Virus record (IMG/VR): IMGVR_UViG_3300032304_002474
Coordinates: 1 to 20,590 of that record
Strand: one strand, 5' to 3'
DNA: 20,590 nt
Origin: a virus
The number at the start of each line of letters is the position of its first letter. The first letter of the stretch is position 1. The notes beneath the pieces were generated by a model that saw nothing but the letters and a program-made list of their open reading frames with translations, was not told the origin of the DNA and made no database searches. Of the stretch, positions 1,930-20,590 are shown one piece after another. Both the position numbers and the translations under genes were made by a program.

Positions 1930-4062
1930 ATGAATGTAAGAGGCTTCGATGTGGGTACTTATAATATCGTTTGTTGCAAAAGAAGCGCAGACAATGAGTT
2001 TTCTTATAAACGAGAAGTCAATGGATTTCTTGAAATGCCCTTGGCGAATCGTTTTGTATTCAACATGATGAAGAATGCGGGTGTTCCATTAATCGAACAG
2101 CCAGAATCTAATGTTGCTTATGCTCTTGGTGAAGCTGCGGTCAATATGGCGTATACAATGACCCAAATAGAATTAAAGCGCCCTATGAAAGATGGTTGTT
2201 TGAATCCTAGAGAACGACACGCGCAGCAGATCATGAATGTCATGTGTCATAGTCTTATCGGAGAGGTAGAAGAAGATAATACAACTTTATACTATTCGGT
2301 GCCCGCAAACGCTATCAATCAAGAAACTGATGCTGACTATCACGGAAAAGTTCTTGAAGCGATGTTTAGATCATATAGAAGTGAAAAAGGTTACAAAGTT
2401 GATCCTCATCCAATAAATGAAGCTCTCGCGCTCGTCTATGCAGAATTAGGAAATAAAAATTGGACGGGTTTTGGAGTCAGTTGCTTGGTTCCTGGTACAA
2501 AGATCTATACCGATAAAGGAATATCAAATATTGAAAATGTTTCCGAAAATGACAAAGTGATAACGCACAAGGGAAGATGGAGAAATGTCAATAAGATCAT
2601 CACAAAACAATTCAAGGGAATGATGACCAAAATACAAATCCAAGGATATTCAAACAACACTAATGATTACAAATTTGTAGACAATCACGAATTGTATGTA
2701 AAAAGGAATGGATCATGGAGGTGGGTCGGTTGCGAGGAGTTAGTTGAAGGAGACATCGTTGGGGAACCCATAGTTGGACAAGACAGCACTTCTAGTCCCG
2801 TAACCATGACTTTATGTGAAAGAACCACATGTTCAAAAGAATACACAAAAAAAACAATAGGGTCTACGCCATCAATGCAAAGATTGATCGGGTACTTTAT
2901 GGGCGACGGCTCAGTGAATGAGATCGAAGGTTGTATTCAATTTGATTTTGCCAACCACGAAACTCAGAACATCAAGGATGTACAAGAGATAATCAAGAAC
3001 ATTTTTTCAAAAGATTCTTCGGAAACTAAACATGGAGATGGATGCACGCGTTTAAAATGTTACTCTAGGGGTCTGGTCAATTATTTCAAAAACAACATGT
3101 ATGACGAGAATAGAGTTAAGAAATATCCTTGGGATATAAGCAGACTGACAAAAAATGAATGTTTGAATTTGCTTATAGGTCTGGTGAGGAGTGATGGGTC
3201 GGTGTTAGAAGAATCCGTGTCTTTTTCTAATACTAATACGCGTTTAATTCTTTTGGCAAAGCAATTATTTTCAAGAATTGATTTGGCGGCTTCAATAAAT
3301 TTTAGAGAGCCAAGAATAAACGAAAAAGGAATAGGCGGAAGGTCTATAGTAGGAAAAAAGAAAGAATGGGGCGTAAGTTCGGGGGGTAAAAAAGTTTCTA
3401 GGTCCATAATTCAAGCATTTGAGGAAACAAATGAATCAAATGATAAAGTGCTTCAGAAAATTTTCATAGAGGATGGTTTCTGTTGTGGATACATTCAGAA
3501 AATAGAGCATGAGGAATACGATGGGGTTGTATATGACCTCCAAGTTGAGGAAGACCATAGTTTTTCTGGTCCTTATCTGACAATTCATAATTGTGGGGCC
3601 GGTATGGTGAACGTTTGCTACGCAATGTATGGTGCTCCTATATTTCATTTTTCTATAGTCAATAGTGGAGACTGGATTGACAAGATGGCATCAAAAGCCA
3701 TTGGAGAAGAAACCACAACGTATGTAAATAGAGAAAAAATGCACACAGATCTCACAGTTGAAAATCCAGATACTCTTGTACAGAGAGCAATAAAGACTCA
3801 ATATGAAATTATGATTCAACACACAGTTCAAGGAATTAAAAAAGGAATTGAAGAAGCCGGCAACAAGGCTCGATCTGAACAACCCATAGACGTTGTGGTA
3901 GCAGGAGGTACTAGTCTACCTAAGGGCTTCGATTTACTTTTTAGAAAAGTCCTTGAGCAGGCTAAGATAACAAATCTTAAACTAGGGGAGGTTATCAGAC
4001 CGCAAGACCCCCTCTATTCAGTGGCAAGAGGCTGTTTGATTGCGGCAGAAAACGCGAAATGA
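1930..4062 (+). CDS. actin/Hsp70-fold ATPase interrupted in frame by an intein
   Basis: The 710-residue precursor consists of an N-extein (1-184), an intein (185-554) and a C-extein (555-710); the spliced product would be 340 residues, a normal size for ParM/MreB-like proteins. The extein carries the ATPase-fold signatures. Phosphate-1 loop is FDVGT at residues 6-10. The phosphate-2 region is rebuilt across the splice junction as VS/CGAGMVNV. The adenosine loop is VVVAGGTSLPKG at about residues 655-667. Actin-fold proteins of phages and plasmids polymerise to move or position DNA, while Hsp70 relatives are chaperones; the sequence alone does not decide. The usual phosphate-2 aspartate appears to be Ser. 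AGGAG sits eight bases before the ATG; the gene lies between the 75-aa gene and a DUF5659-like gene. Confidence 0.85.
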   Translation: MNVRGFDVGTYNIVCCKRSADNEFSYKREVNGFLEMPLANRFVFNMMKNAGVPLIEQPESNVAYALGEAAVNMAYTMTQIELKRPMKDGCLNPRERHAQQIMNVMCHSLIGEVEEDNTTLYYSVPANAINQETDADYHGKVLEAMFRSYRSEKGYKVDPHPINEALALVYAELGNKNWTGFGVSCLVPGTKIYTDKGISNIENVSENDKVITHKGRWRNVNKIITKQFKGMMTKIQIQGYSNNTNDYKFVDNHELYVKRNGSWRWVGCEELVEGDIVGEPIVGQDSTSSPVTMTLCERTTCSKEYTKKTIGSTPSMQRLIGYFMGDGSVNEIEGCIQFDFANHETQNIKDVQEIIKNIFSKDSSETKHGDGCTRLKCYSRGLVNYFKNNMYDENRVKKYPWDISRLTKNECLNLLIGLVRSDGSVLEESVSFSNTNTRLILLAKQLFSRIDLAASINFREPRINEKGIGGRSIVGKKKEWGVSSGGKKVSRSIIQAFEETNESNDKVLQKIFIEDGFCCGYIQKIEHEEYDGVVYDLQVEEDHSFSGPYLTIHNCGAGMVNVCYAMYGAPIFHFSIVNSGDWIDKMASKAIGEETTTYVNREKMHTDLTVENPDTLVQRAIKTQYEIMIQHTVQGIKKGIEEAGNKARSEQPIDVVVAGGTSLPKGFDLLFRKVLEQAKITNLKLGEVIRPQDPLYSVARGCLIAAENAK
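2482..3591 (+). mobile_element. intein with LAGLIDADG homing endonuclease (370 aa)
   Basis: Residues 185-554 of the actin-like precursor. Block A is CLVPGTKIYTDKG with the catalytic Cys1. The block B region contains the histidine of DNHELYVK. Two LAGLIDADG-type helices are present, LIGYFMGDGS and LIGLVRSDGS, each with an acidic residue, so the endonuclease may be active. Block F is VVYDLQVEEDHSF; block G is LTIHN followed by extein Cys +1. All residues for class 1 splicing are present: Cys1, penultimate His, terminal Asn and Cys +1. The element sits inside the conserved phosphate-2 loop, a typical choice because precise loss is hard. It is in frame, with no stop or frameshift. Confidence 0.95.
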
Positions 4063-4077: not shown

Positions 4078-4296
4078 ATGAAAAAAACAGTTAGCGATTT
4101 AGGTGCAGGAGCCTATCTTCTTATGCATGGTCATAAGGTAATAGGAAGAAAAGGAAGAGATTTTATATTTGAAGTGGGCGAGCAAGAAGAAACAGAATTT
4201 GAGCAGAGAAAATTAGAATATCTCTCAAGTGAGTTTCACAGATTTGATTCATATATTATGTCACTGAAGAAGATCGGCGAATATAGCCCACAATGA
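4078..4296 (+). CDS. DUF5659-like small protein, 72 aa
   Basis: A 72-residue protein that begins with a short helix and DLGAGAYLLMHGHKVIG, then GRDFIFEVGE and a C-terminal helix ending in FDSYIMSLKKI. The order (DLAxAAYLLxxGxxxxG, a beta strand with FxFE, then a helix with a FxxxxxxLK ending) matches my recollection of the DUF5659 family, common in phages and without a known function. The upstream ribosome site is a purine-rich AAGAGAGA. Its last four bases overlap the next start (ATGA), implying translational coupling with the gene at 4293. Confidence 0.65.
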   Translation: MKKTVSDLGAGAYLLMHGHKVIGRKGRDFIFEVGEQEETEFEQRKLEYLSSEFHRFDSYIMSLKKIGEYSPQ

Positions 4297-4718
4297 AAAT
4301 AGAAGCGCTTCAGTATTTTGTTGGAAGAATATGTACGGTTTTCACTGTCCCCACTAATAGGGACTTTAAATCAGAAAATCCACAAACTTTTCCTCAGCCT
4401 GTGTTTCATTATTTCGTAGGCAAAGTTCTTGAAGTAAATGCCCATGGAATAAGTATAGAACAATGGAACAATGATAAAAAGCTTAGAACTTTCTTCTTTA
4501 TGGATCATATTGTGTCTATTTCCGAAGAAGAAATTCTCAATCCTTCTGATCCAAAAGACATGGAGATTATCAAAGAGTATAAAAAAACAAATGATAATTC
4601 TATGAAAAAAGCAAATGAAAAAGTAGAAGAACTTAAAAAACAGAGAGAAGAGTTGTCGAAGAATCCCTATGTGGACATAGGCACACTTTCTAATCTTGCA
4701 GAAGGCAAACCTAATTAA
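4293..4718 (+). CDS. hypothetical protein with beta-barrel-like core and coiled-coil tail, 141 aa
   Basis: The 141-residue protein has an N-terminal beta-rich region (residues 1-85) with YFVGRICTVFTV, FHYFVGKVLEVN and RTFFFMDHIVSISEEE. This pattern of curved strands and glycines is reminiscent of small SH3/Sm-like barrels, although no family is recognised. Residues 88-125 are a charged, probably coiled-coil helix rich in Lys and Glu. It starts in an ATGA overlap with the DUF5659-like gene. Its TAA stop lies in the perfect palindrome CTAATTAATTAG (4711-4722), which also contains the stop codon of the convergent primase gene; the two genes overlap by 8 bp. Confidence 0.7.
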   Translation: MKIEALQYFVGRICTVFTVPTNRDFKSENPQTFPQPVFHYFVGKVLEVNAHGISIEQWNNDKKLRTFFFMDHIVSISEEEILNPSDPKDMEIIKEYKKTNDNSMKKANEKVEELKKQREELSKNPYVDIGTLSNLAEGKPN

Positions 4719-5757
4719 TTAGATTGTCCATCGCCAGTTTGGTTCCCTCCCAATCTCCTGTGCCGGGTGATGGGTTATATTCTTTTTCTTTTGACAGAAT
4801 ATAATGACGTAATATTTTTTCGCCTTTAGCCACAAGAAGACCATTCCAATCTTTAAATTCTTTGCATGGTCTTACATAAAATATTTTACCAAATCCCTTG
4901 GACATGAGATTCTTGGCTATTTTTGGGAGGGCTTCCGCTCCAGCATCATCTGCATCTAGAGCAAGGACAGGAACTAAACCTCTAAGCATTTCGACTTGTT
5001 TGTCGGTCATGTTCTTACCCCCCAGAGCAGCAGATTTAAATCCACATGTGGAGAGAGATAAAGCATCAAATTCTCCCTCTGTAATATAAATTTTGTCTCC
5101 ACTAACAGGCCATTCTGGGACAAACATCACATCGCCCTTCCCTATGCCCAATTCTTTAGGAGGACCAAGATATCGTAGGTTTTTACCTGGATCTCCGATG
5201 TATCGCCCATTATAATAAATCAAATTTCTTTTATTATCATAATAAGGTATGACAATCCTATTCCTATATCTCCCTCTTGTGCAAATGAATAATCCATCCA
5301 CAGAAATTTTTCTTGAAGCGATGTAGTCCTCAGCCATTTTTCGAAGATTATTATAAGATGGCAAGTCGCCGAAAAGATAGCAATTGTCAGGCATTTGCAG
5401 ACCACTTAGTTTTTCTTCTGATACTGGCTCGCTTTTTGTGCTAAATAATTCCAGGACTCTTCTTTCAAGATCTTCAAGGCTACCCTCTGAGATTGCATCT
5501 AATGTTTCTATCGCCTGTTCATATGAGCACTTGTCCACAAGCATGACAAGCCCAACAAGATTGCCTTTTTCATCTGACTTCCAACAGTGGTAAACTCCAT
5601 TTTGATTATTTGTTTTGCCTCCGGATGGATTGCACCAAAGATGATGCTTTCTATCTTCGCAAAATATAGAGTTCAATAGAATTTCATTTCCTCTAACCAC
5701 AACATCGTCAAAACGAGACTCTGCCCAACTTAGAAATCTATCGAAATCAATTGACAT
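4711..5757 (-). CDS. DNA primase, TOPRIM type with N-terminal zinc finger
   Basis: At 348 residues it is close in size to T4 gp61 and lacks a fused helicase. The N-terminal part contains a CHC2-like zinc-binding region with Cys33, Cys42, His57 and Cys58 (LWCNPSGG, then GVYHCW). The middle contains a basic RGRYRNRIVIPYYD segment, as in DnaG catalytic cores. The TOPRIM domain has the glutamate motif YITEGEFDAL (Glu227) and the DxD motif LALDADDAG (Asp268 and Asp270), which bind the catalytic metals. The expected role is RNA primer synthesis for lagging-strand replication. AGGAAAG lies before ATG 5757. It diverges from the PD-(D/E)XK nuclease gene, consistent with a DNA metabolism region. Confidence 0.9.
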   Translation of the reverse strand: MSIDFDRFLSWAESRFDDVVVRGNEILLNSIFCEDRKHHLWCNPSGGKTNNQNGVYHCWKSDEKGNLVGLVMLVDKCSYEQAIETLDAISEGSLEDLERRVLELFSTKSEPVSEEKLSGLQMPDNCYLFGDLPSYNNLRKMAEDYIASRKISVDGLFICTRGRYRNRIVIPYYDNKRNLIYYNGRYIGDPGKNLRYLGPPKELGIGKGDVMFVPEWPVSGDKIYITEGEFDALSLSTCGFKSAALGGKNMTDKQVEMLRGLVPVLALDADDAGAEALPKIAKNLMSKGFGKIFYVRPCKEFKDWNGLLVAKGEKILRHYILSKEKEYNPSPGTGDWEGTKLAMDNLIN

Positions 5758-5824: not shown

Positions 5825-6631
5825 ATGAATATAGAGCACATATCCGTATCCAGGAGCAAATCCTACAAGCAGTGTCCTTACTACTACAAATTAAAATACC
5901 ATGATAAAATACCAAATCCTGGCGAGGAGCAATTTTATTTTGTCTATGGGAAAATAATACACAAAATTGCAGAACAAGTTATTCAGGAAAAAGGCACAAG
6001 AAAAATATCTGAGGTTGTGAATGATGTGCTTTCAGGAGACATTGAGATAGAAGAAGGCAAAAAAGCTCCACACTTGCCAGTCGATTATAAAAAAAGACTT
6101 CCTTCTCATATAAAAGCCATAGAGAAATTAAACAAATCGATAGGCTACGAAGGAATAACTGAGCATAAATTTAAATATGATCTAGAGTCGCCGAATGGGA
6201 AATTTGTAACGGGATTTATCGATAGAATAATAATTCGCGGTGACAAAGCATGGATTTTGGACTACAAAACAACAAAAAAAGGTCCGTTTAGAGAGAACAA
6301 AAGCACAATAAGATATGATCCACAACTTAGGATATATTCAAGAGTGGTTCAAAAAGAATTTGGAATCGACCCCAAGAATATTAAAGCGGCTCTTTATTAC
6401 CTGGAGGATGAGGTGATACTTCATTCTTCTTATGAGGAAGATTCGCTTGAGTCTATAGAAAAAGAACTTTTAGAAATATACAACGAAATTTATCAACACC
6501 CCCCAGATCATGCAAGAGGGATAACCGGAAATCATTGTAATCGTTGCGAATATAGAGACATATGTCCATTCTTCAGATCTCCATCTAAAAAAACAATATG
6601 GAATGGAGATCTGAAGAAACTCGGGAACTAA
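5825..6631 (+). CDS. PD-(D/E)XK nuclease of Cas4/RecB type with four-cysteine cluster
   Basis: The 268-residue protein has the full core of this nuclease group. His46 is in YGKIIHKIAE, Asp133 in GFIDRIII, and Asp146 with Lys148 in ILDYKTT; QLRIY at 167-171 matches the QxxxY motif. Cys17 (YKQCPY) and the C-terminal trio Cys238, Cys241, Cys247 (HCNRCEYRDICPFF) match the cysteine arrangement that holds a 4Fe-4S cluster in Cas4, AddB and related exonucleases. The expected activity is single-strand DNA exonuclease or flap processing in phage replication or recombination. No cas1 or CRISPR array is in the window, so an adaptation role is not supported. The start lacks a Shine-Dalgarno sequence and follows CATATAG by four bases. 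Its 3' end contains a perfect 16-bp inverted repeat. Confidence 0.88.
   Translation: MNIEHISVSRSKSYKQCPYYYKLKYHDKIPNPGEEQFYFVYGKIIHKIAEQVIQEKGTRKISEVVNDVLSGDIEIEEGKKAPHLPVDYKKRLPSHIKAIEKLNKSIGYEGITEHKFKYDLESPNGKFVTGFIDRIIIRGDKAWILDYKTTKKGPFRENKSTIRYDPQLRIYSRVVQKEFGIDPKNIKAALYYLEDEVILHSSYEEDSLESIEKELLEIYNEIYQHPPDHARGITGNHCNRCEYRDICPFFRSPSKKTIWNGDLKKLGN
6569..6618. repeat. perfect 16-bp inverted repeat at a convergent gene junction
   Basis: TTCTTCAGATCTCCAT (6569-6584) is the exact reverse complement of ATGGAGATCTGAAGAA (6603-6618), with an 18-base spacer. It lies within the last 21 codons of the nuclease gene, 10 bases before its stop codon, and just outside the end of the convergent protease gene. 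The RNA hairpin would be strong on either strand. There is no T-tract directly after it, so it is not a standard intrinsic terminator. Confidence 0.85.
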
Positions 6632-7470
6632 AAGTTCACCGCCAAGTTAGGCATAGGAACGAACTCAAGTTTTCTTATGCCGGGAGTCCAATCTTTAATA
6701 GGCATAATTTCTGCTTTTCTTCTTGAATCTAAAATCCAAGAATGATTGTTGTCGGAAAAAACCTTTTTAATTGAATGGAATGGTGTGAAGTACCCTATTC
6801 CATCGCCTGATGAGATGTCAGAAGTCCCCCAGCAAATTCCAACTATTTCTCCTTCATTTGTTATTAAACCACCTCCGGATCTTCCAGGTCGTGGACTATT
6901 TTTAATTGTAATGATATCAGGGTTTCTTAATTCCTTTACCACAACTTCATATCTTGCAACTTCTTTTCCTCCATCACAACCTACAGAATTAAGGATTTGA
7001 CCTTTTTGAATAGATTTGGAAGAAACAGGAAAGAAAACAGGCTTCCAAGATGGTTTAAATCTTAAAAGGCTCACGTCATATCCTCTTTCATTACTCCAAA
7101 ATAAAACCTCTGCATCATGGGTTTCTGGAGTTTCTAGTTTGGCATCATTATGATACCAAACAACTATTTTTGCACTTATATTTTGATTTGGGGCGTATTC
7201 TTTATTGCCCGACCACAAATGACCACACGATATTACGTAAGCCTGATTTGATTCAAAGTCGTAATGACAAATTGTGCCCGAGCCTGCGCCGCCGTTTGAA
7301 GATATTCTAACCGAAGCAGAAAGTAGTTTCCTATAGGTTTCGTCTCTTTGTTCGTTTAAAACCACCGCGACGGACTCTTCCTTGAGTATCGGATGTGTGG
7401 GTGACGAATTTGCTACATTGCAAAAGATTAGAAAAAAAGATAAAATCAGCCAGAATGAATTCCTTTTCAT
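6628..7470 (-). CDS. secreted trypsin-like serine protease
   Basis: The 280-residue protein starts with a classic signal peptide: MKRN, a hydrophobic core WLILSFFLIFCNVA, and a small-residue cleavage region around residues 19-23. The mature part has a chymotrypsin-fold catalytic triad: His84 in ISCGHLWSG, Asp132 in YDVSLL and Ser198 in GRSGGG. The GxSGG and IVGICWG pattern resembles trypsin-like/DegP-like peptidases; no PDZ domain follows. It should act outside the cytoplasm, possibly on envelope proteins or on phage particles during lysis, but the substrate is unknown. The lipobox-like Cys17 lacks the normal -1/-3 residues, so a lipoprotein is unlikely. GGAGG stands eight bases before the ATG. 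Its stop overlaps the nuclease gene by 4 bp. Confidence 0.85.
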   Translation of the reverse strand: MKRNSFWLILSFFLIFCNVANSSPTHPILKEESVAVVLNEQRDETYRKLLSASVRISSNGGAGSGTICHYDFESNQAYVISCGHLWSGNKEYAPNQNISAKIVVWYHNDAKLETPETHDAEVLFWSNERGYDVSLLRFKPSWKPVFFPVSSKSIQKGQILNSVGCDGGKEVARYEVVVKELRNPDIITIKNSPRPGRSGGGLITNEGEIVGICWGTSDISSGDGIGYFTPFHSIKKVFSDNNHSWILDSRRKAEIMPIKDWTPGIRKLEFVPMPNLAVNF

Positions 7471-14388: not shown

Positions 14389-14416
14389 ATTCTACACAAA
14401 TTCTAGTGCTTGTCAA
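14389..14416 (-). promoter_or_regulatory. sigma70 promoter of the 91-aa gene
   Basis: On the minus strand TTGACA (14416-14411) and TAGAAT (14394-14389) are separated by 16 bases. The -35 lies within the last codons of the ferritin-like gene. The predicted leader is about 35 bases and contains the AGGAG ribosome site. It is the best match to the bacterial consensus in the window. Confidence 0.75.
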
Positions 14417-14882
14417 CAGCACTTTCCAGCATTTCTCTAATATTATCTGCATCGCCTCTGCTATCGAGAATCTGATCCTCGAGGAAAAGAGCAATATAGG
14501 TTCCATCAACAAAGTCTTCGCCACCATTCTCTCCAAGTTCTTCTGCTTGGGCGTGTCTGGCGACGTAGTTTGAAACCACTTGGTCTTCCATTTCAAGGGC
14601 GGCTCTCAACAATGCTTTTGGGCATGTGAGATCTTGTTTAAAATCCGCAACGAGACTTGGAACATTTTTATTTAATTTTCGGCGTGTGATCAATCCTTGA
14701 ATGAGCCTTCTAAACTCTTCTACATGTTTCATTTCACTTTGTGCCTGCTCCACAAAATATTCACTTATTTCTTGCCTATGGAGGCCGCGAATATTTGTCG
14801 AGGCTTGCAGGTAAAAATGCATGTGCGCATATTCATTAGAAAGATCTTTAATAAGAAGATCTACTAGTTCTTCAATTTTCAT
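14403..14882 (-). CDS. ferritin-like diiron protein (bacterioferritin/Dps-like fold)
   Basis: The 159-residue protein fits a four-helix bundle. The first helix has LSNEYAHMHFYLQAS with Glu17 and Tyr18. The second has EQAQSEMKHVEEF, the ExxH metal motif. The third has LEMEDQVVSNYVARHAQ, and the fourth FLEDQILDSRGDADNIREML. The two acidic/His pairs have the spacing of a ferroxidase diiron centre. Such proteins oxidise and store iron or protect DNA from oxidative damage. Whether this one assembles into a 12- or 24-mer cannot be told. AGGA lies eight bases before ATG 14882, and the start overlaps the end of the upstream gene by 11 bp. Confidence 0.8.
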   Translation of the reverse strand: MKIEELVDLLIKDLSNEYAHMHFYLQASTNIRGLHRQEISEYFVEQAQSEMKHVEEFRRLIQGLITRRKLNKNVPSLVADFKQDLTCPKALLRAALEMEDQVVSNYVARHAQAEELGENGGEDFVDGTYIALFLEDQILDSRGDADNIREMLESAVDKH

Positions 14883-15383: not shown

Positions 15384-17201
15384 ATGCAAAATGGAAAAAA
15401 TACAATTCCAGAGAGTCTCGACTATCCCACAGAGCCGTTTGAAGATTTTTATTTTCGGTTCAAGAACACAAAGGAAATGGTAAGAGATCCTGAGTGGGAG
15501 AAAATATATTCGACCTATTACGAACTGGACGAGTATGAGATGGATGTCCCTGTCGGTGAGAAGGTGGAAGATTTAAATTCTTTCTCGGCGGATAAACAAA
15601 TCCAAGAAGTTATAAAATGTGCCAAAGACTTCTTTTATTTTTGTCATAGGTATGTGAAAATTTTACATCCTAAATTTGGAACCATACCCTTCGTTTTATA
15701 CAAATACCAAAGAAGAGTAATTCATGAATATGAGAACAATCGATTCAATATGATATCGAAATTCCGGCAAGGAGGATTAAGTACGGTTACGGTTCTATGG
15801 GGTTTGTGGAAATGCATGTTTCAAAAAGATCAACAAATCTATTTCTTGTCAAAAACTGATCGTGAAGCCTTAGCGGCAGGAGATATAGCACGAAGAGCGA
15901 TGGATAATTTTCCATATTGGATTTATGATAAAAATAACGCAGACATAACAAAACACGAAAAAAACTTTAGCGACGTGGGATCAAAAATATGCTTTTATAC
16001 TCCTGAGGCGGCGCGCGGTAAATCAGCCACTTATATCATGATCGACGAGGCAGCATTTATAGATAAGATGGATGAACATTGGAAAGCCATGTATCCTGTA
16101 ATCGCGACGGGTGGACACATAGAAATCATATCCACGGTCAATGGTCTTGGAAATTGGTATGAAGAGACATATCACGAAGCTCAGGCTGGACGAAACTTCT
16201 TTAACATAATAGATCTTGATTACTGGGAACACCCGGTCTATGCCAACCCAGAGTGGGCAGAGGCAATGAAGGCCAATCTTGGAGAAAAAGGATGGCAACA
16301 AGAAGTTCTTAGAGATTTTCTTGGTTCAGGTGAAACTTATATCTCTTCCAACGTAATAACTCAATACGACAAAGCAACAAGAAACACAGGCTTGTCTAGA
16401 AATGCCTTTTCAAAATGGACTAACGAATCGCAACAAAAGCAAAATTGTCCTGACGGTGCTCTTTGGATATGGAAAGAACCTATGAGTGGTCATGAGTACA
16501 TTATCGGAGTAGATTGCGCTGAAGGGGTTGGAAAAGATGGAGACAATTCTTGTTTTCAGGTGTTAGATGCAATCAGCCTTGAGCAAGTCGCAGAGTTTTA
16601 TAGCAACCTTGTGCCTCCAAATGTATTTGCACAAATATTAAATCAAATAGGGATTTATTATAACACTGCGACTATAGTGGTCGAAAACAACGCTATAGGC
16701 GGGGCTGTGATTAATAGCCTAAGTAATGATTTAGGATATGAATCAATATATTACGAAAGCCGAAAATCATCAACGAAATTAGGAATCAAAATGAGTCCTT
16801 CAAATCGTCCAATACTTCTTGAGGCAATGCAAAACAGATTGATGAACGGAAGCGTACGCATAAATAGCCAAAGACTTGTTGGAGAGTTGAAAACATTCAT
16901 ATACAGTCCGCAAAAGAAAAGAGCAGAAGCTATAAAAGGAAAACATGATGATGCTATTATGGCATTGTGTCTTGCTCTTTACGTTCGAGATGAAAGATTA
17001 CGAGGAATGCCTTTGAGCATGGACAAAGGAGATCAAGAGATACTTCTTAAAAAAACAAATCCTTACGAAGACATAAAAAAAGAAATCATGGAAGGTGGAA
17101 ATTCGGATTGGTTCGAGACAAAATCAGGGAACAAAGAATTCTCTATGGATGATTTTCCTCAAAGAGGAAATGATGGACTTCTTAAGGAGTTTGGATGGTA
17201 A
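15384..17201 (+). CDS. terminase large subunit (T4 gp17-like packaging ATPase and nuclease)
   Basis: The 605-residue protein has both domains of the packaging motor. The ATPase part has a Walker A-like loop KFRQGGLST (126-134), a Walker B IMIDEAA with Asp221 and Glu222, and a coupling motif ISTVNG (249-254). The nuclease part, of RNase H fold, has Asp377 in IIGVDCAEG, Glu434 in IVVENNAIGG and Asp522/Asp523 in KHDDAIMAL. The protein docks at the portal and translocates and cuts concatemeric DNA. The Walker A loop lacks the usual GK(S/T) and relies on the first Lys/Arg residues, as in many phage terminases. Length fits gp17 (about 610). The start has no Shine-Dalgarno sequence. The end overlaps the next gene by 7 bp. 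Confidence 0.95.
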   Translation: MQNGKNTIPESLDYPTEPFEDFYFRFKNTKEMVRDPEWEKIYSTYYELDEYEMDVPVGEKVEDLNSFSADKQIQEVIKCAKDFFYFCHRYVKILHPKFGTIPFVLYKYQRRVIHEYENNRFNMISKFRQGGLSTVTVLWGLWKCMFQKDQQIYFLSKTDREALAAGDIARRAMDNFPYWIYDKNNADITKHEKNFSDVGSKICFYTPEAARGKSATYIMIDEAAFIDKMDEHWKAMYPVIATGGHIEIISTVNGLGNWYEETYHEAQAGRNFFNIIDLDYWEHPVYANPEWAEAMKANLGEKGWQQEVLRDFLGSGETYISSNVITQYDKATRNTGLSRNAFSKWTNESQQKQNCPDGALWIWKEPMSGHEYIIGVDCAEGVGKDGDNSCFQVLDAISLEQVAEFYSNLVPPNVFAQILNQIGIYYNTATIVVENNAIGGAVINSLSNDLGYESIYYESRKSSTKLGIKMSPSNRPILLEAMQNRLMNGSVRINSQRLVGELKTFIYSPQKKRAEAIKGKHDDAIMALCLALYVRDERLRGMPLSMDKGDQEILLKKTNPYEDIKKEIMEGGNSDWFETKSGNKEFSMDDFPQRGNDGLLKEFGW

Positions 17202-19734: not shown

Positions 19735-20590
19735 ATGGTCAATTCTTATGTTGAAAACTCCGCTGTATCTGATCTTGACTTCAAACAGTCCGTAAGATCT
19801 GCCACGACTGGAAATATAACTCTTTCGGGTCTTCAGACCGTAGATCAAGTTTCTCTCGTAAATGGCAATAGGATTCTCGTTAAGGATCAGACCGAAGGAA
19901 GTCAGAATGGAATTTACATAGTTTCCTCCGGGTCTTGGACTAGATCACTAGACGCCAACGGAAATTCAGAGATCTCGTCTGGAATGATGTTGTTCGTAGA
20001 GGAAGGTTTCTCAAACGCAAGAACCTTATGGATACTTTCCACGAACAATCCAATAACATTAGGATCCACCTCTCTTTCATTTACAAGATTTGTAGGCGCT
20101 CAAGGAACAACAGGTTCACAAGGAACAACGGGTTCACAAGGAACAACAGGTTCACAAGGAACAACAGGTTCACAAGGAACAACAGGTTCACAAGGATTGA
20201 CAGGTTCACAAGGATTGACAGGTTCACAAGGAATACAAGGCAGGCAAGGATTAACTGGTAGTCAAGATTTAACAACATCATTGGCAGCAGGAAGTGGAAT
20301 AATTTTCACATATGATTCGGGTAGCGATACTCTCACGCTTTCTTTACAAAACGTACAAGGAATTCAAGGACTAACCGGTATCCAAGGAACAACAGGTTCA
20401 CAAGGAACAACAGGTTCACAAGGAACAACAGGTTCACAAGGAACAACAGGTTCACAAGGATTAACAGGTTCACAAGGATTAACAGGTAGTCAGGGAATAC
20501 AGGGCGGACAAGGATTGACTGGTAGTCAAGATTTAACAACATCATTGGCGGCAGGAAGTGGAATAATTTTCACATATGATTCGGGTAGCG
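19735..20590 (+). CDS. collagen-like tail fibre, incomplete at the window end
   Basis: At least 285 codons are open and the gene runs off the window. Residues 15-120 ([52 protein letters not shown]) are homologous to the second domain of the gene at 17775. From residue about 121 follow Gly-X-Y triplets such as [12 protein letters not shown] and [12 protein letters not shown], a collagen-like trimeric stalk. The triplet tract is interrupted by a folded insert ([20 protein letters not shown] and so on), then starts again, and the same insert begins again at the window edge. ATG 19735 follows an in-frame stop at 19711; it has no ribosome site but sits next to CTATATAT. The likely role is host attachment. 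Confidence 0.88.
20095..20274 (+). repeat. first array of 18-bp collagen-coding repeats
   Basis: Ten 18-bp units start at 20095, 20113, 20131 and so on up to 20257. The core unit is GGTTCACAAGGAACAACA (GSQGTT); later units vary as GGATTGACA or GGAATACAA. Each unit codes two Gly-X-Y triplets except the last, where Gly is replaced by Asp. Confidence 0.9.
20377..20538 (+). repeat. second array of 18-bp repeats, 264 bp from the first
   Basis: Nine 18-bp units from 20377 to 20538 repeat the first array with an offset of exactly 264 bp (20113 to 20377, 20257 to 20521). The following unique insert is repeated too (20275 onward and 20539 onward), with one visible base change within about 50 bases. 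The tract is therefore a higher-order tandem repeat of 88 codons that continues beyond the window. Confidence 0.9.

Follow-up and report, generated by a model that had tools for sequence, protein, structure and literature searches.

The window, that is, the whole stretch of 20,590 nucleotides analyzed here (IMG/VR virus record IMGVR_UViG_3300032304_002474), contains an open frame of 710 aa at positions 1930–4062, and a good ribosome-binding sequence, AAAGGAGATAAAAAATG, is present upstream of it. Based on the open frame and Pfam matches, this is the precursor gene of a phage volactin-like actin with an intein. The gene and all its parts described below are on the plus strand. The N-extein (1930–2481, 184 aa) extends from the phosphate-1 motif GFDVGTYN to Ser184. 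It is followed by the class-1 intein (2482–3591), which corresponds to 370 codons and 370 aa from Cys1 to Asn370, and by the C-extein (3592–4062), which contains the +1 Cys, CGAGMVN as the remainder of the phosphate-2 loop, and the stop codon. The extein after joining the flanks is 340 aa long.

The actin gene is surrounded by a conserved cassette, seen here at 1096–1647, 1687–1917, and 4078–4296. Among 107 loci of the clade A type, a relative of the 183-aa protein is found upstream in 74 and a relative of the 76-aa protein in 72, while a relative of the 72-aa protein is directly downstream in 81. These three cassette proteins show no confident family match, and they may be filament partners. 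The window is a tailed phage fragment, as seen from a DnaG-like primase with a Toprim domain (4711–5757, minus strand), a PD-(D/E)XK exonuclease (5825–6631), a trypsin-like protease (6628–7470, minus strand), and a large terminase (15384–17201). It also encodes a ferritin-like (Dps-type) protein at 14403–14882 on the minus strand (PF00210, E 1e-13). Collagen-like GTTGSQ repeats are present at 19735–20590 in a protein that runs past the window end and is probably a tail fibre.

The insert in the actin gene starts with Cys-Leu-Val-Pro-Gly-Thr and ends with Ile-His-Asn, and Cys-Gly-Ala-Gly-Met follows. Splicing block A, CLVPGTKIYT (2482–2511), includes Cys1. Block B is FVDNH (2674–2688), whose His is intein residue 69; in this intein family Val replaces the usual Thr of TxxH. 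Blocks F and G, VYDLQVEEDHSF...LTIHN (3529–3591), include the penultimate His and the terminal Asn. The two LAGLIDADG motifs are LIGYFMGDGS (2884–2913), with the catalytic Asp at intein residue 142, and LIGLVRSDG (3172–3198), with the catalytic Asp at residue 238. In alignments of four and then six copies of the intein, Cys1, the block B His, the block F Asp-His, and the terminal Asn are invariant, and both D142 and D238 are invariant across the aligned copies. The penultimate His is conserved except in locus L085, where it is Lys. In Pfam, LAGLIDADG_3 matches two stretches of the window intein with 40.3 bits against a cut-off of 22.5. Intein_splicing (PF14890) gives 34.6 bits, just below its curated cut-off of 35.8, and the sister intein of locus L002 exceeds this cut-off with 37.5 bits. 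The splicing residues, both motifs, and the Pfam matches thus confirm what the earlier note had read at 2482–3591, a class-1 intein with two intact motifs of a LAGLIDADG endonuclease.

A structure model of the precursor, poor in quality at the junctions, matches PI-SceI and other inteins; the best structural matches are PI-SceI (VMA), PI-PkoII, and PI-PfuI. Like these, the volactin intein has Hint blocks A, B, F, and G flanking a two-motif LAGLIDADG nuclease. It differs from them in being smaller (370 aa), in its low identity to them (~12–17%), and in its host, a volactin-type phage actin instead of the V-ATPase, polymerase, or ribonucleotide reductase of PI-SceI-type inteins.

When the two flanks are joined, the extein shows a single match to Volactin (PF25216) at positions 3–321 of 321, with 213.1 bits and E 9e-63; the gathering cut-off of this model is 35 bits. 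With the uncut precursor, the match is split in two pieces and scores 190.6 bits. PF25216 is the family of the volactin of Haloferax volcanii, which is a dynamic filament (PMC10869688). Filaments are demonstrated for the archaeal protein only (PMC10869688). The assignment of the host to the ParM or MreB family was rejected, as MreB_Mbl reaches 25.2 bits against a cut-off of 27, and the MamK and MreB models are far below their cut-offs. No family matching the extein is present in PHROGs version 4. A single-sequence search of the extein against PDB gave no match, but a profile search did match MamK. From the profile matches, the host protein is a member of the Volactin family and is not ParM-like.

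The evidence for the fold comes from L006, an intein-free phage homologue 87% identical to the window extein, which was modelled in place of the spliced window extein. Predicted with 41 relatives, L006 has pLDDT 91.9 and pTM 0.89, and its top PDB match is the MamK filament (TM 0.73/0.75), followed by MreB, BeeR, and actin. The earlier note had proposed an actin-fold host, and the confident model of this empty homologue, together with the full-length Volactin match of the extein, bears this out. Volactin shares the actin fold with MamK and MreB but is only ~17% identical to them, and no intein-containing member was found for MamK/MreB.

Phage volactin-like proteins fall into two clades, A and B, which are ~35% identical to each other and ~32–38% identical to archaeal volactins. 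They are common among viral contigs (L006, L100, and many other loci), and many of their genes are on contigs of 100–595 kb; two of the records measure 485 and 595 kb. In Omnitrophota MAGs (L185, L186, L202, and L206), two volactin-like genes adjoin each other, and the second has Cys at the +1 position.

The insertion point was located by profile alignment, in which the volactin sequence iSfGaGmvNvc sits on VDIGAGTTDIC of MamK. The intein lies at S|CGAG, between the invariant Ser184 and the variable next residue, within the phosphate-2 loop. This agrees with the position claimed in the earlier note. Ser184 (2479–2481) occupies the place of the phosphate-2 loop Asp of MamK; the D-I-GAG of MamK/MreB aligns with S-x-GAG of volactin. 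Ser at this position is invariant in the aligned phage and archaeal volactins. As the intein interrupts this loop, it is a reasonable structural inference that the protein is probably inactive before splicing.

At least 12 other records carry the same insert at precisely this position; with the window, there are at least 13 records and ~10 distinct inteins. As the intein searches retain the best 80 loci and disfavour split genes, the carrier numbers are lower bounds and not prevalence. In clade A, the carriers at S|CGAGM are the window, L085, L089/L090 (identical loci), L180, L260, L261/L264 (identical), L262, and L263. In clade B, they are L002, L003, and L004/L005. More than 100 homologues lack the 370-residue segment. 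Intein-free homologues occur at 79–88% identity, and the nearest are 87–88% identical among the matches listed. The recurrence at an identical position, along with the more than 100 homologues without the insert, excludes chance; it also supplies the further actin-fold hosts with an insertion at this loop that the earlier note had suggested searching for, and speaks against its alternative that the segment is a native domain. More distant inteins (L095 and others) occupy other proteins, for example, a terminase-like one.

None of the carriers comes from an isolate; one is from a MAG and the others are metagenomic contigs, which would fit an assembly artefact or chimera. Nevertheless, in-frame insertion at one codon in at least 13 records from many metagenomes refutes this explanation, and its probability is negligible. 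The one intein match in a cellular genome is L180, from a Neisseriaceae MAG; its contig is probably phage because it bears a terminase. Cellular volactins carry the same loop, GISFGAGM, and some phage homologues bear the intein. In the Haloferax class, a search of 145 genomes at E 1e-25 gave no such intein; lacking a positive control, this search is weak.

Several comparisons indicate that the intein has moved independently of its host gene. When the ten carriers are placed on an extein tree (116 viral sequences), their distribution requires ten changes, at least seven of which are forced by supported branches. Between carriers, the identity of inteins is nearly flat (~45–77%), whereas that of exteins ranges from 31% to 88%. 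The window and L085 are 88% identical in the extein and 50% in the intein, and empty relatives fall between them. The window and L002 are 36% identical in the extein and 60% in the intein. No single constant rate fits both of these pairs.

The pair of L002 and L004/L005, which come from different metagenomes, is the clearest case. Their exteins show dS of ~0.9 on both sides, while the inteins show dS of 0.03–0.04 and dN of 0.005–0.008. In a sliding DNA comparison, the identity is ~82–85% outside the intein and 98.7% inside. The identical block extends only ~12 bases to the left and ~8 bases to the right of the insertion, and this co-converted flank includes the +1 Cys codon. Such a pattern is the expected trace of break-repair homing with a short co-converted flank, and judging from these distances, the pair is a recent homing event. 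L004/L005 (contig IMGVR_UViG_3300014819_000010) has a one-base frameshift within the intein near a run of A, which could be an assembly error or a dying copy. In the L002 locus, a few kb away from the actin intein, the first ORF (~1–1800) contains another intein-like segment with motifs of the LAGLIDADG type, followed by an apparent ribonucleotide-reductase sequence.

It could be supposed instead that the intein predates the split of the two phage volactin clades and has been lost many times. One site is used in both clades, and some carriers cluster, such as L089 and L262, which group together in both the intein and host trees. Vertical descent may explain some carrier pairs. As a general account, it is very improbable: the rates conflict, with inteins diverging far more than exteins between the window and L085 and far less between the window and L002, and the near-identical intein in diverged genes contradicts it for L002 and L004/L005. 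The lateral transfer and the incongruence between host and intein are indirect evidence of mobility to the cognate empty site. The presumed homing site in the window consists of a left side at 2467–2481 and a right side at 3592–3606, where the codon of the +1 Cys lies.

The +1 residue is Cys in all 10 distinct carriers. Among 106 dereplicated empty alleles, it is Cys in 55, Phe in 35, Trp in 12, and others in 4. The nearest empty alleles among the matches listed have Phe for the window, L085, L260, and L263, and Trp for L002 and L003. The association between the intein and the +1 Cys is in the same direction in all differing independent pairs, with a median p of 0.125 on supported branches, which is above 0.05. 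Comparison of carriers with their nearest empty alleles reveals an identity dip within 15 bases of the site, which is clear in L085 (p = 7e-5) and weaker elsewhere; such a dip near the site is also present in 2 of 10 control pairs. Outside L085 and the L002 pair, the signal of co-conversion beside the insertion is weak. The +1 pattern is suggestive of selection for splicing plus co-conversion. In a possible extension of this reading, empty alleles with Phe or Trp at +1 are immunity alleles, kept or selected because such a residue spoils the homing site or makes the insertion unspliceable. The Phe and Trp of the nearest empty alleles fit this extension, as does the prevalence of Cys across the rest of clade B. 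However, Phe is also usual in haloarchaeal volactins, where the 145-genome sample showed no such intein, and thus Phe may simply be ancestral. Moreover, co-conversion can restore Cys. Immunity is a rather unlikely explanation.

Another explanation is that the intein is regulatory and persists because the phage benefits from it. Splicing conditional on redox, temperature, or timing could gate the assembly of the actin ATPase from a probably inactive precursor. The N-terminus is CLC, with Cys1 and Cys3, in half of the 10 distinct inteins (L089, L180, L260, L262, and L263). This layout can form a redox-sensitive disulfide. The window intein starts with Cys-Leu-Val and has Val, not Cys, at position 3. 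The penultimate His varies in L085; Lys at this position occurs among mycobacteriophage inteins, where the residue modulates splicing and such changes alter its rate (PMC5050341). It can be speculated that a selfish intein has turned into an assembly checkpoint that times the working phage actin filament, at least in those lineages that have Cys1-Leu-Cys3 or an altered penultimate residue, but this is a long shot. Most close relatives have no intein, the carriers are scattered over the tree, the nuclease motifs are conserved, and recent transfer is visible. A regulatory intein is thus quite improbable. The earlier note had proposed that assembly of the ATPase is switched by splicing, and this part of it is not supported, as the patchy presence, the retained Asp pair, the incongruence, and the near-identical transfer fit a homing element.

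The segment is very probably a mobile class-1 intein whose allele-specific home is the phosphate-2 loop of phage volactin-type actins. Translation would first yield the 710-aa precursor containing the intein. Splicing and cutting are inferred from the conserved residues and the transfer pattern. Splicing would proceed by an acyl shift at Cys1, transfer to the +1 Cys, and cyclisation of Asn aided by the penultimate His, and would produce the 340-aa actin. Once free, the intein with its two-motif LAGLIDADG nuclease is predicted to target volactin genes that lack it in phages infecting the same cell, and to cleave them around S|xGAGM. When the break is repaired on the carrier copy, the intein would be copied along with a few flanking bases, and therefore the +1 Cys, which is required for splicing, would travel with it.

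The intein itself is of an ordinary kind, and it is the site and the host type that are apparently unreported. No report of an intein in an actin-like host was found in the literature searched, outside which most subscription journals lie, in agreement with the earlier note, which had called the host unusual. The huge-phage survey and the two jumbo-phage reviews searched name no phage actin. The closest parallels are the inteins of mycobacteriophage TerL and other phage proteins (PMC5050341), which are likewise phage-borne, located at a nucleotide-binding motif, scattered, mobile, and variable at the penultimate residue. Those inteins are in terminases (P-loop sites of TerL), Cas4-like exonucleases, and others, whereas the site here is a loop of an actin fold.

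With these observations, a cytoskeletal ATPase of the actin fold joins the known hosts of inteins. A nucleotide-binding loop is hit again, this time of the actin type rather than the P-loop. They also document a widespread and little described family of phage actins, the volactin-like proteins, on contigs of up to ~595 kb. The L002 pair, in which almost the same intein sits in two diverged phage genes and the shared block stops only a few bases beyond the insertion, represents an unusually clear case of natural homing. As empty alleles with Phe, Trp, and Cys are present along with occupied ones, the homing specificity is directly testable.
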